This document shows, in pieces, positions 38,535 through 43,901 of a stretch of DNA of 64,000 nt (the stretch's first letter is position 1; the number at the start of each line of letters is the position of its first letter). The translations under genes were made by a program, and so were the position numbers. The DNA lies in the NCBI RefSeq assembly GCF_022346945.1, contig NZ_JAKRNI010000014.1, forward strand, positions 1 to 64,000, read 5' to 3'. Source of the DNA: Microbacterium sp. ACRRU (lineage in GTDB: Bacteria; Actinomycetota; Actinomycetes; Actinomycetales; Microbacteriaceae). Under the pieces are notes generated by a model. It made no database searches. It was not told where the DNA came from and saw only the letters and a list, made by a program, of their open reading frames with translations.

Positions 38535-39782
38535 ATGCACCACCCCGCCCCGACCGTCGCGCAGCGCTCGCTGATCCACCACACGGGGTTCTGGTACTTC
38601 CCCGTCGCGTTCGTCGCGCGGCTGCCGTTCGCGATGATGACCGTCGGCGTGCTGGCGCTGGTCGTCGCGGTGCGCGGCTCCGTCGCCCTCGGCGGGCTCA
38701 CCTCGGCTGCCGTCGGTATTGGCGTCGTCGTGGCGGGGCCGATCCTCGGGGATCTGGCCGACCGGTTCGGTCAGTCGCGGGTGCTCGTTCCGACGGGCCT
38801 GGCCAACGGCATCCTCCTCGCCCTGTTCCCGGTCGTCGTGGGCTCTCCCGCGACGACCGGCCTCGTGCTGGCCACCGCGGTGGCGATCGGTGTGACGGGG
38901 CCGCAGACTGCCGCGATGTCGCGAAGCCGTGTCATGGCGCTCATCGGTGCGCGCATCGCGCCCGATCGACGCGAACGGACGTTCTCGCGCGCGATGGCCT
39001 ACGAGTCGGCGGCCGACGAGACGGCCTTCGTCATCGGCCCGTTCGTCGTCGGTCTGCTCGCGGCCGTCATCGCCCCCTGGGCGCCGATCGCCGCGGCCGC
39101 CGCGCTCAGCTTCGTCTTCGTCACGGCCTTCGCCCTTCACCCGACCGGTCGTGTCGTGCCGGTGGCCTCCGCACGCGGGGCGATGGCGCCCGCCCGCGAG
39201 CTCGTGCGACCGCGCATGCTCATGCTCGTGGTGGCCGTCTTCGGCGTCGGCGCCTTCTTCGGCTCCACCCTGACGTCGTTGACGGCGTTCATGGAGGCGC
39301 GCGGCGCCCCCGAGGCGGGCGCTCTGCTGTACGGCGTCATGGGCGTCGGATCGGCGGTGCTCGCCCTCGCCGTGGTCCTGCTCCCGGCCCGGTTCTCACT
39401 GCGCTGGCGTCTGGTGGTGTTCGCTGTGCTGCTGTTCTCCTCGGCGGGCGCCTACTCGGTGGGCGGTTCGGTTCTGACGGTGACCGTCGTCCTGTGCCTC
39501 ATGGGCATCGGGGTCGGACCGTCCCTGGTGACCCTGTTCAGTCTCGCCGGGCACCGCGCACCGGCCGGGCGCACCGCGACCACGATGACGCTGCTCGCTT
39601 CGGCGCTCACGTTGGCGCAGGCACTCTCTTCGGCGGTCACGGGCGCGGTGGCCGAGAGGGTGGCGGTCGAGACGGCGATGCTGTTTCCCGCCGGTGCCGC
39701 GCTCGTGGTGCTCGTGATGGCGGCGGTGAACGCGGCCCACGCGCCGCGATGGGACCGGGCGCCTCAGGCCTCGATCGGATAG
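38535..39782 (+). CDS. MFS transporter
   Basis: 415 residues with twelve hydrophobic segments in two six-helix halves. The helix 2-3 loop GDLADRFGQSRVLV is the MFS motif A variant. N-terminal HHTGFWYFPVAFVARLPFAMMTVGVLALV is typical of actinobacterial drug or sugar efflux-like permeases; substrate unknown. ATG follows CCGGAG by 7 nt. Its last 19 bp overlap the convergent yidC-like gene. Confidence 0.9.
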   Translation: MHHPAPTVAQRSLIHHTGFWYFPVAFVARLPFAMMTVGVLALVVAVRGSVALGGLTSAAVGIGVVVAGPILGDLADRFGQSRVLVPTGLANGILLALFPVVVGSPATTGLVLATAVAIGVTGPQTAAMSRSRVMALIGARIAPDRRERTFSRAMAYESAADETAFVIGPFVVGLLAAVIAPWAPIAAAAALSFVFVTAFALHPTGRVVPVASARGAMAPARELVRPRMLMLVVAVFGVGAFFGSTLTSLTAFMEARGAPEAGALLYGVMGVGSAVLALAVVLLPARFSLRWRLVVFAVLLFSSAGAYSVGGSVLTVTVVLCLMGIGVGPSLVTLFSLAGHRAPAGRTATTMTLLASALTLAQALSSAVTGAVAERVAVETAMLFPAGAALVVLVMAAVNAAHAPRWDRAPQASIG

Positions 39783-40495
39783 CGGCGCCGCAGAATCATC
39801 CGCTGGCCGAGCGTCCACACCGTCGTCACGGTGAGGTAGAGGCCGGCGGCCAGCGGGACCAGGAGCGCGACGATCGCCGTCGTGAAAGGCAGGATCGCGA
39901 CCAGTCGTGCCGTCCACGCCGGCGTTTCCGGAACCTGCGGCGGACGCAGGAACCGTCGCGTCAGTTCGCTCGCTCCGGCGATGACGGTGACGACCGCGGC
40001 CACGAGCAGGAGAGTCGCGCCGTCCGCGGCACCAGTGGCCAGGGCCGAGAGGAGACTGGTGCCGAGGGGCACCCCGGCCAGCCGCTCGGTCAGGAGCGCG
40101 TTGGCGTGTCCGCCGACGGTGGGGTGCAGGAACACTGCGTACAGCAGCCCGACGACCGGCGCCTGGGCGAGAACGGGGAGGCACCCGGCGAACGGCGAGA
40201 TCCCGGTGTCGCGGTAGAGCTGCATCGTCTCGCGCTGCAGGCGTTCGGGGTTCTTCGCCCATCGTTCCCGCAGGAGCCGGAGCCGGGGGGCCAGTCGCGC
40301 GCGATCCCGTTCGGCGCGAGCCTGAGACACGCCGACGGGGATGAGTGCCGCCCGGACCGTGAGCGTGACGAGCACGACGGCGAGAGCGGCGGCCGCAGAA
40401 CCGGCCGCGGGGGAGAGGACAGCGGTCAGGGCCAGCAGGCCCTCGGTGGTGAGGTCGAGAAGAGCCGCGAGGGGCGGCAGAGCGAAGAGGTCCAA
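39764..40495 (-). CDS. yidC: YidC/Oxa1-type membrane insertase paralog
   Basis: 243 residues, five hydrophobic segments. The 60KD_IMP core is clear: VSQARAERDRARLAPRLRLLRERWAKNPERLQRETMQLYRDTGISPFAGCLPVLAQAPVVGLLYAVFL, with the conserved hydrophilic-groove Arg region at about 44-60. It lacks the rpmH-rnpA context of the main yidC, so it is probably a second copy. TTG start, no strong ribosome binding site. The DUF6412 gene lies 80 nt upstream on the same strand. Confidence 0.88.
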   Translation of the reverse strand: MDLFALPPLAALLDLTTEGLLALTAVLSPAAGSAAAALAVVLVTLTVRAALIPVGVSQARAERDRARLAPRLRLLRERWAKNPERLQRETMQLYRDTGISPFAGCLPVLAQAPVVGLLYAVFLHPTVGGHANALLTERLAGVPLGTSLLSALATGAADGATLLLVAAVVTVIAGASELTRRFLRPPQVPETPAWTARLVAILPFTTAIVALLVPLAAGLYLTVTTVWTLGQRMILRRRYPIEA

Positions 40496-42365: not shown

Positions 42366-43472
42366 TCACACGCGACGCGCAGCGGATGTCATCGGGCACT
42401 CGAACGGGTCGCGAGCGGCGAGGCCGACGCGGTTCAGGTACGCGATGACGATGCCGTAGGACTGCAGCAGCGTCGTCTCGACGTAGGGCACGTTCAGGGT
42501 CGCGCACTGCTCGCGCACGATCTCGCGCGCGCGGCTGAGGTACGGCCGCGGCATGTTGGGGAACAGGTGGTGCTCGATCTGGTAGTTGAGACCGCCCATG
42601 AGCCACGTCGCCCACCATCCGCCGGAGATGTTGCGCGACGTGCGGACCTGCTTGCTGAAGAAGTCCAGCTTGGCTCCGGGCGCGATGACCGCCATGCCCT
42701 TGTGATTGGGGGCGAATGAGGCCCCCATGTACACACCGAAGACCGCCAGCTGCACGCCGAGGAAAGCGAAGGCCATCCCGATCGGCAGAAAGATGAACAC
42801 CGGAGCGACGAAGACGGCGAAGCGCAGCGCGATCAGCCCGAGCTCGGTCCAGCGCCCCTTGACCTCTCCGCGCGAGAGCAGGTGGCGAATGGCCAGTGCG
42901 TGGAGGTTGAGGCCCTCGAGCGTCAACAGCGGGAAGAACAGCCAGCCCTGTCGGAGGGTGATCCACCGGCGGAGTCCGCGAGCGGTGGCGGCATCCTCGT
43001 CGAGGAACGAGATCGTGTCGATCTCGATGTCGGGATCCTTGCCGACCCGGTTCGGATTGGCGTGATGGCGCGTGTGCTTCGTGGCCCACCAGGACTGGCT
43101 CATGCCGACGATTCCGTTGCCGATCCACAGCGCCAGACGGTCGTTGGCACGTCCGGACGAGAAGATCTGCCGGTGATTGGCCTCGTGCGCGAGGAAGGCG
43201 ACCTGGGTGAACAGGATGCCGAAGGCCGCGGCGATCAGGAGCTGGAACCAGCTGTCGCCGAGGAGGACGAAGCCGGTGATCGCTCCGCCGAAGCCGAGCG
43301 CGATCGCCGCGGCGACGAGCGCGTAGAAGACCGGGGTGCGGGCGAGCAGCCCGCTCTCACGGACGACCTGCGAGAGCTCCGTATAGGCCTTGGCGATCGG
43401 GGGGAATTCGGTGGTGCCGGAATACGTCTGTCGGACGGGACCGAGGCGGGACTCGGCGATGGTGGAGGCGAT
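42366..43472 (-). CDS. Membrane fatty acid (acyl-lipid) desaturase, with a non-canonical start
   Basis: Introduces double bonds in membrane acyl chains with a diiron centre. With the proposed start the product is 368 residues, normal for the family. Histidine boxes: HEANH (96-100), HTRHH (133-137) and QIEHHLFP in the C-terminal third; four to six hydrophobic segments. The first ATG in frame is 43103, after box 1, which would give a dead 245-residue fragment. Upstream to the stop at 43527 there is no ATG, GTG or TTG in frame. ATC 43472 lies 7 nt after AGGAG and begins IASTIAESRLGPVRQ, so it is used here. Possible promoter TAGTGT at 43541-43536. Confidence 0.85.
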   Translation of the reverse strand: MASTIAESRLGPVRQTYSGTTEFPPIAKAYTELSQVVRESGLLARTPVFYALVAAAIALGFGGAITGFVLLGDSWFQLLIAAAFGILFTQVAFLAHEANHRQIFSSGRANDRLALWIGNGIVGMSQSWWATKHTRHHANPNRVGKDPDIEIDTISFLDEDAATARGLRRWITLRQGWLFFPLLTLEGLNLHALAIRHLLSRGEVKGRWTELGLIALRFAVFVAPVFIFLPIGMAFAFLGVQLAVFGVYMGASFAPNHKGMAVIAPGAKLDFFSKQVRTSRNISGGWWATWLMGGLNYQIEHHLFPNMPRPYLSRAREIVREQCATLNVPYVETTLLQSYGIVIAYLNRVGLAARDPFECPMTSAARRV

Positions 43473-43640
43473 GAAGATGCTCCTCGCGATGATGACCGAA
43501 GTCGGGAGCCGGAGCGAATGCCCGGGCTATGGCCCACACTACGTCGATGCGTATGGGCCCACCGGTATACACGGGCATGCACGGGAGACTCGCCGGAACC
43601 ACTCATCGGATCTCCCGCCGCGACGGGCCTCTCGAACGCG

Positions 43641-43683
43641 GCGAAGGCCGGGCGGTCGCCGAAGCGACCGACCCGGCCTTCGC
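43641..43683 (-). terminator. Terminator hairpin of the cold-shock gene
   Basis: Arms 43641-43659 and 43664-43683 pair over 18 bp (with a small internal bulge) around a CGAA loop, 14 nt past the csp stop. It also separates csp from the desaturase promoter. Confidence 0.7.
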
Positions 43684-43697
43684 TGAGGAGCGTGAGC

Positions 43698-43901
43698 TCA
43701 GAGGGGGCGGATGTTCGCCGCCTGCATGCCCTTGGGGCCCTGCTCGGCGTCGAATTCGACCTTCTGTGCTTCCTGCAGCTCCTTGAAGCCATTGCCCTGG
43801 ATCGCGCTGAAGTGCGCGAACAGGTCGGCCGAGCCGTCGTCGGGTGCGATGAACCCGTAGCCCTTCTCGGAGTTGAACCATTTCACGGTGCCAGTGGCCA
43901 T
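43698..43901 (-). CDS. CspA-family cold-shock protein
   Basis: 67-residue single cold-shock domain with both RNA-binding motifs KGYGFIA and DLFAHFSA (RNP1 K-G-Y-G-F-I at about 14-19, RNP2 at about 27-34). RNA chaperone, cytosolic. ATG 43901 follows GGAAG by 7 nt. Unusually, the frame stays open for another 100 codons upstream to GTG 44201. A long 5' leader is also typical of cold-shock genes. Confidence 0.95.

Follow-up and report, generated by a model that had tools for sequence, protein, structure and literature searches.

Evidence for a conserved AUC start codon, probably repressed by IF3 proofreading, in a fatty-acid desaturase gene of Microbacterium

Where does translation begin in a gene whose reading frame offers no canonical start codon ahead of its conserved domain? 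A desaturase gene on the minus strand of the window – the whole stretch of 64,000 nucleotides from Microbacterium sp. ACRRU that was analysed – raises this question. An earlier note on this DNA had remarked that the desaturase frame contains no ATG, GTG or TTG (NTG below) between its in-frame upstream stop and the ATG at 43103, that starting at this ATG would cost the first histidine box, and that an ATC seven bases past a Shine-Dalgarno (SD) sequence would give a protein of 368 residues. The absence of NTG codons was confirmed on the sequence, and the description of the ATC and its SD is exact (Table 1). The frame terminates at the TGA at 42368–42366, and its first NTG is indeed the ATG at 43103, 123 codons past the ATC. 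A protein begun there would lack, as the note had foreseen, HEANH, and with it positions 2–56 of the Pfam family PF00487.

Read from the ATC, the protein matches PF00487 with an E-value of 1.6e-41 and a score of 143.2 bits against a gathering cut-off of 29.7, and covers positions 2–252 of the 253 in the profile. Read from the ATG at 43103 it matches only positions 57–252, at 113.7 bits, which is still over the cut-off. Boxes of the HEANH, HTRHH and QIEHH type are the established diiron histidine boxes of the PF00487 family. Judged by the full-length domain and the three boxes, the gene product is a PF00487 membrane fatty-acid desaturase; desaturase activity was not assayed. The NCBIfam DesA and DesB equivalogs match it only far under their cut-offs, so no regiospecificity was assigned.

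Table 1. Features at the desaturase locus, in coordinates of the window
Feature	Position	Strand	Basis
Cold-shock protein gene (csp), just upstream of the desaturase	43698–43901	minus	Pfam CSD, 7.2e-31
Possible −10 box TAGTGT	43536–43541	minus	by eye, from alignment
In-frame upstream stop TAG closing the desaturase frame	43527–43529	minus	sequence
SD GAGGAG, 7 nt before the ATC	43480–43485	minus	sequence; spacing in relatives
Inferred AUC start codon	43470–43472	minus	start calls in relatives, codon replacements, tree, conservation boundary
Membrane fatty-acid desaturase coding sequence (PF00487), 368 aa and TGA, from the ATC	42366–43472	minus	Pfam and sequence
First histidine box HEANH, residues 96–100	43173–43187	minus	sequence
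Second histidine box HTRHH	43062–43076	minus	sequence
Third histidine box QIEHH	42567–42581	minus	sequence

A sequence like TAGTGT is also found in close ATC-start relatives in the alignment. If it is a −10 box, which is possible but inferred by eye, the desaturase leader would be roughly 55 nt long. A scan for the sigma-70 consensus found no promoter at the desaturase locus, and Rfam gave no match there. In RNA folding the SD was largely paired at all temperatures tried, its unpaired fraction ranging from 0.01 (8 °C) to 0.07 (37 °C). Temperature-dependent exposure of the SD was considered as a candidate and rejected, as the folding model shows hardly any change between 8 °C and 37 °C.

Searches for the desaturase gave a match in 243 of 247 genomes of the same genus, 272 of 299 genomes at the level of the family and 105 of 149 at the level of the order, and a scan of the collection for relatives kept 80 named loci. 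The nearest named relatives are Microbacterium records, with protein identities of up to 96%. Sequence was read for 264 gene loci, a non-random subset of the matches; dereplication on identity of 600 bases left 215 distinct loci. The Microbacterium set consists of 148 distinct genes, the one in the window included. A Leucobacter gene (L106) was moved out of this set, and three genes titled only as from a Microbacteriaceae or Actinomycetes bacterium (L051, L079 and L105) remain in it. The rule for calling starts was biased against the finding: ATC, ATT or ATA (ATN below) was called only where no ATG, GTG or TTG was preceded by an SD matching in 4 bases or more. Under a rule based on the SD only and blind to the codon, ATC was the commonest call at each of four spacing optima (42, 65, 96 and 75 of 148), but ties were frequent, and at an optimum of 6.5 many of them went to the next codon. 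One SD can serve two codons that lie three bases apart, which made this rule ambiguous, and it was dropped.

The comparison of start codons among orthologues, a check that the earlier note had proposed, supports its suggestion that the desaturase initiates at the ATC. Within the Microbacterium set ATC was called in 112 of the 148 genes, ATT in 4, ATA in 3, ATG in 13, TTG in 5 and GTG in 2, with 9 undetermined; canonical starts thus amount to 20 of 148. In more than one-third of the genes (53 of 148), the stretch from the upstream in-frame stop to the conserved N-terminal block is free of NTG codons; these genes were called ATC (50), ATT (1) or undetermined (2). The SD of the 119 ATN starts was mainly AGGAG (46) or AGGTG (30), at an aligned spacing of 7 (44), 5 (39), 6 (31), 8 (3) or 4 (2) bases, so that 114 of the 119 lie within 5–7. 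The ATC start recurs in relatives down to ca. 70% protein identity (L260). Going by these calls, an ATC conserved in more than 100 related genes excludes chance as the source of the observation. The desaturase appears to have an AUA start in L020, L022 and L051 (and in L052, the duplicate of L051 from M. testaceum NBRC 12675), and an AUU start in L159, L167, L171 and L173 and, by eye, in L105. AUA and AUU are further codons that IF3 should reject.

Outside Microbacterium the picture is more mixed. In 45 genes from other Microbacteriaceae, the rule called ATG in 11, ATC in 10, TTG in 3, ATT, ATA, GTG and CTG in 1 each, and left 17 undetermined; calls made by eye on the same genes were ATG 20, ATC 16, ATT 1, GTG 2, TTG 2 and undetermined 4. 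An NTG ahead of the block is missing in seven of the 45, six of which have an ATC or ATT candidate. ATG is dominant in the 22 genes from other families of the order (ATG 14, ATC 2, ATT 1, CTG 1, undetermined 4). For the analyses of ancestral states and of leader motifs, start states in other genera and other families were assigned by eye, with the other-family genes L264–L283 except L272 assigned ATG wholesale; seven genes of the Microbacterium set also had by-eye states in the ancestral-state analysis. On the tree, these states place an NTG start at the root of the family and an ATN start at the ancestor of an AUC-rich branch of 165 leaves, which contains the whole Microbacterium set and within which there were repeated later moves from ATN to NTG.

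Changes at the third base of the start were counted by parsimony on a FastTree tree of 193 genes, with the 132 AT-type starts compared to 72 fourfold-degenerate sites. The third base of the start changed 10 times, against a median of 33 at the fourfold sites, only one of which was as low. For changes to or from G the count was 6; the fourfold sites had a median of 25, and 4 of the 72 were as low. Simple base frequencies at the third position of the 132 starts were less distinctive: 5 of the 72 fourfold sites were as rich in C and 9 as poor in G. In the close set, 41 of 54 aligned starts end in C, versus 65% at fourfold sites where the window has C. Raw third-base frequency gives no clear sign of selection – only the change count, on one gene tree, separates clearly. 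Because of that count, the AUC appears to be kept by selection and held away from AUG, which is one step away, with the reservation that a single gene tree was used.

Conservation alone is no proof of a start, because ATC is retained at conserved Ile positions of the desaturase as well (0 to 3 changes in each of 8 columns). This near-constancy of conserved Ile codons is what speaks for taking the ATC as an ordinary internal Ile codon, with the start lying further upstream and reached by a frameshift or at another non-NTG codon, but several observations make that very improbable. Among 24 close relatives (20 with an ATC start, 4 with ATG), mismatches to the window in the 45 bases upstream were 0.54, 0.49 and 0.44 at codon positions 1, 2 and 3, while downstream of the start they were 0.05, 0.06 and 0.33, as is typical of coding sequence. 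The flat, non-coding rates 5’ of the ATC contradict a frameshift from an upstream frame in the orthologues, which the earlier note had named as a possible refutation. GC content by codon position shifts at the start in the 119 ATN-start genes, the upstream alignment shows insertions and deletions that are not multiples of three, and in-frame stops lie 2 (L126), 5 (L074) and 10 codons (L077 and L121) upstream; in L126 an in-frame TGA directly precedes ATC ATC. The codons that replace the ATC also differ from those at Ile sites. Where identity is 80% or more (58 genes), the start aligns with ATC in 41, ATG in 8, ATA in 3 and TTG in 2, and in 4 the ATC is shifted by 1–3 codons. Internal Ile positions with ATC (21 sites, 1197 cells) had 303 replacements, mostly GTC (111), CTC (78), GTG (44) and CTG (37); ATG accounts for 18 replacements, all at one site. 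At the start, by contrast, the ATC gives way to codons of start type (ATG, ATA, TTG) and not to the GTC and CTC usual at internal Ile sites. Two further explanations deserve next to no credence. A recent ATG-to-ATC mutation or a single wrong base had been kept as an alternative in the earlier note, and such errors do happen, with ATG only one base off, but the same codon stands in those 112 genes, the nearest relatives included, and in so many separately sequenced genomes that a fresh change or error is excluded. Initiation of the functional protein inside the domain, at the ATG at 43103 or another downstream NTG, can appeal to that ATG being the first in frame and to a shortened protein that passes the Pfam cut-off; it would sacrifice HEANH and the start of the profile, and the residues from the ATC onward are conserved. 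The AUC is well supported as the native desaturase start, in the absence of N-terminal, mutation or ribosome-profiling data.

The gene for IF3 itself offers a comparison. In the genome that bears the desaturase, infC begins GAGGAG-TTCCGC-ATC. By eye, infC has an ATC behind GAGGAG or AAGGAG in 13 of 13 Microbacterium genomes looked at (this one included), and across the order an ATC in 18 of 19 loci and an ATT in one; a twentieth fetched locus missed the motif. The pattern GAGGAG-N5-7-ATC occurs at 157 sites in the genome, versus 28 for the reversed pattern. Among the 30 of the 157 sites that were examined, only the desaturase met strict frame criteria (at least 100 codons open from the ATC, and no NTG either between it and the upstream stop or within the first 100 codons), and infC was the other plausible one. 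Very few bacterial non-NTG start codons have been characterised so far, according to PMC5472188; the same paper describes repression by IF3 at the conserved non-canonical start of Streptomyces sigR, and infC there is said to have an ATC. In vitro, more IF3 favours strong third-base pairs and lowers the products from most weak ones (PMC10158994), and AUC paired with CAU is itself absent from the portion of that evidence used here.

The desaturase start belongs to the codon class that IF3 rejects, and it follows a good SD. In the mechanism proposed, the initiator tRNA would read the AUC as fMet, positioned by the strong GAGGAG. The third base of the AUC forms a mismatch with the CAU anticodon, and IF3 would thereby destabilise most initiation complexes and keep synthesis low; synthesis would rise when IF3 is scarce or its proofreading relaxed, and the start codon would be a control point common to the desaturase and infC. 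Both the low output and the IF3 dependence of this putatively weak start are inferred, with no translation, proteomic or IF3 data, and the inference gains weight from infC, which in this genome combines the same start codon with the same SD. Taken as a whole, a native AUC start that IF3 proofreading represses, on the pattern of infC and Streptomyces sigR, is considered likely. The weak start, at a codon that ribosomes as a rule reject, has the look of a deliberate brake; only a few bacterial genes are known to have one of this kind. A literature search of titles and abstracts, with most subscription journals outside its coverage, found no desaturase with an AUC start.

It remains possible, with a lesser chance, that the AUC is the true start but a fixed low setting, with no sensing of IF3 and no regulation. 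Any weak start lowers output, and the level looks tunable, given the NTG versions in 20 of the 148 genes, several of them second copies beside an ATN copy. The sequence evidence fits a fixed setting equally well, including the ATT or ATA that stands for ATC in 7 genes and the way the third base resists change. The start shared with infC makes IF3 dependence more likely, but it excludes nothing.

A csp gene is found no more than 600 bases upstream in 26 of 46 ATN copies versus 1 of 10 NTG copies of the named set (Fisher p 0.012, uncorrected for phylogeny); the comparison rests on the 80 named loci less 21 duplicates and 3 undetermined, and the ten NTG copies include the Leucobacter L106. ATN and NTG copies occur together in several genomes, among them those of Leaf151 (L041 and L050), RU1D (L060 and L048) and M. 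hydrothermale (L057 and L049). In M. testaceum NBRC 12675, the ATA copy L052 is accompanied by a TTG copy, L062. Copies without csp within 600 bases upstream include eight with ATG (L046, L048, L049, L050, L054, L056, L066 and L083) and two with TTG (L058 and L062), and in the alignment close canonical-start copies also differ from the AUC copies in the promoter region. The canonical-start copies that lack csp are a natural control for the AUC copies. Cold as the signal for the desaturase is suggested, by inference, by the csp neighbour and the type of enzyme. Simple cold induction is argued against, because IF3 in E. coli rises relative to ribosomes in the cold, according to PMC6511846, and this should repress an AUC start.

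Two other features of the window were recorded. Between csp and the desaturase is a strong G+C-rich inverted repeat (43643–43680) without a T tract, which by eye may end csp transcription and leave the desaturase with its own promoter; it was not listed by the terminator scan. On the minus strand at 39767–40495 is a gene for a 243-aa protein with a 60KD_IMP (YidC/Oxa1-type) membrane insertase domain.

In other genera and families, the 11-mer CTGGGAAGTCG is frequent ca. 30 bases before the ATG or GTG of canonical-start desaturases. Allowing up to 2 mismatches, it precedes 15 of 24 NTG genes versus 1 of 17 ATN genes in other Microbacteriaceae, and 14 of 20 versus 0 of 2 in other families; undetermined genes were omitted from these counts, which are based on by-eye start states and not corrected for phylogeny. 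It is absent from the Microbacterium NTG copies (0 of 20), and Microbacterium ATN copies have only weak hits (13 of 119), all farther upstream. A candidate leader RNA, in which a GAGC/GCTC-type hairpin with compensatory changes and a near-invariant GGCTGGGAAGTCG are followed by the start codon ca. 20–30 bases on, was seen in L207, L214, L216, L220–L222, L224, L225, L227, L228, L230, L231, L233, L276 and others. Outside Microbacterium, the element of hairpin and GGCTGGGAAGTCG is common ahead of ATG- and GTG-start copies; AUC copies hardly ever have it. A four-pair hairpin precedes CTGGGAAGTCG in 18 of 30 sequences, which were hand-picked, the hairpin being defined after viewing them. Its cells were paired in 92% of cases versus 29 to 44% when slid, and its covariation score exceeded all 500 shuffles; 2 of the 4 pairs had changed on both sides, a count reached by 188 of 500 shuffles. 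Rfam at gathering thresholds gave no match for the leader element in the 20 loci searched, and a text search of the literature found no report on such a leader motif. Of the 14 genomes with a match to the 12-mer GCTGGGAAGTCG of the leader, 11 also have it antisense to an apparent 23S rRNA gene (30 of 32 places read; loci L319, L320, L322, L324, L327, L329–L332, L338, L341 and L343, with Rfam confirmation for L320 only), and this complementarity of the leader to 23S rRNA may be a coincidence. The AUC start may have replaced an older leader element – a lead, not a result. A wider and only tentative proposal, thought doubtful at present, is that a large branch of the Microbacteriaceae put desaturation under IF3 via the conserved AUC, in place of the leader with its hairpin and GGCTGGGAAGTCG, and that the state of IF3, perhaps with cold, sets membrane fluidity. 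If true, the IF3 regulon would extend past infC.

The desaturase AUC is a case of a non-NTG start kept across a genus in a metabolic gene. The natural AUC, AUU, AUA, AUG and UUG variants and the copies within one genome allow comparison, and make the reach of IF3 beyond its own gene testable. Annotation restricted to ATG, GTG and TTG would probably shorten or misplace the desaturase across Microbacterium; deposited annotations were not inspected.

The desaturase shares with the PF00487 family the three histidine boxes and a full-length Pfam match, but differs in its start codon. E. coli pcnB starts at AUU and is, like the desaturase, a gene other than infC with an AUN start, although it encodes an RNA polyadenylation enzyme and belongs to another phylum. 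A survey in E. coli has reportedly assayed all 64 codons as starts. The infC gene, with an ATT start in E. coli and an ATC in Streptomyces, is autoregulated by IF3 (PMC5472188). In this genome infC has the same ATC and SD as the desaturase, in the form GAGGAG-N6-ATC rather than GAGGAG-N7-ATC. However, the product of infC is the discriminating factor itself, which closes a feedback loop, whereas the desaturase is a metabolic enzyme for which no such feedback is possible. The start of sigR is given as GTC in 32 of 34 Streptomyces and GTT in the other 2 in PMC5472188. Codon, gene and lineage all differ from those of the desaturase, and IF3 control has been experimentally tested for sigR only, but both are actinobacterial genes with a conserved non-canonical start codon behind a strong SD.
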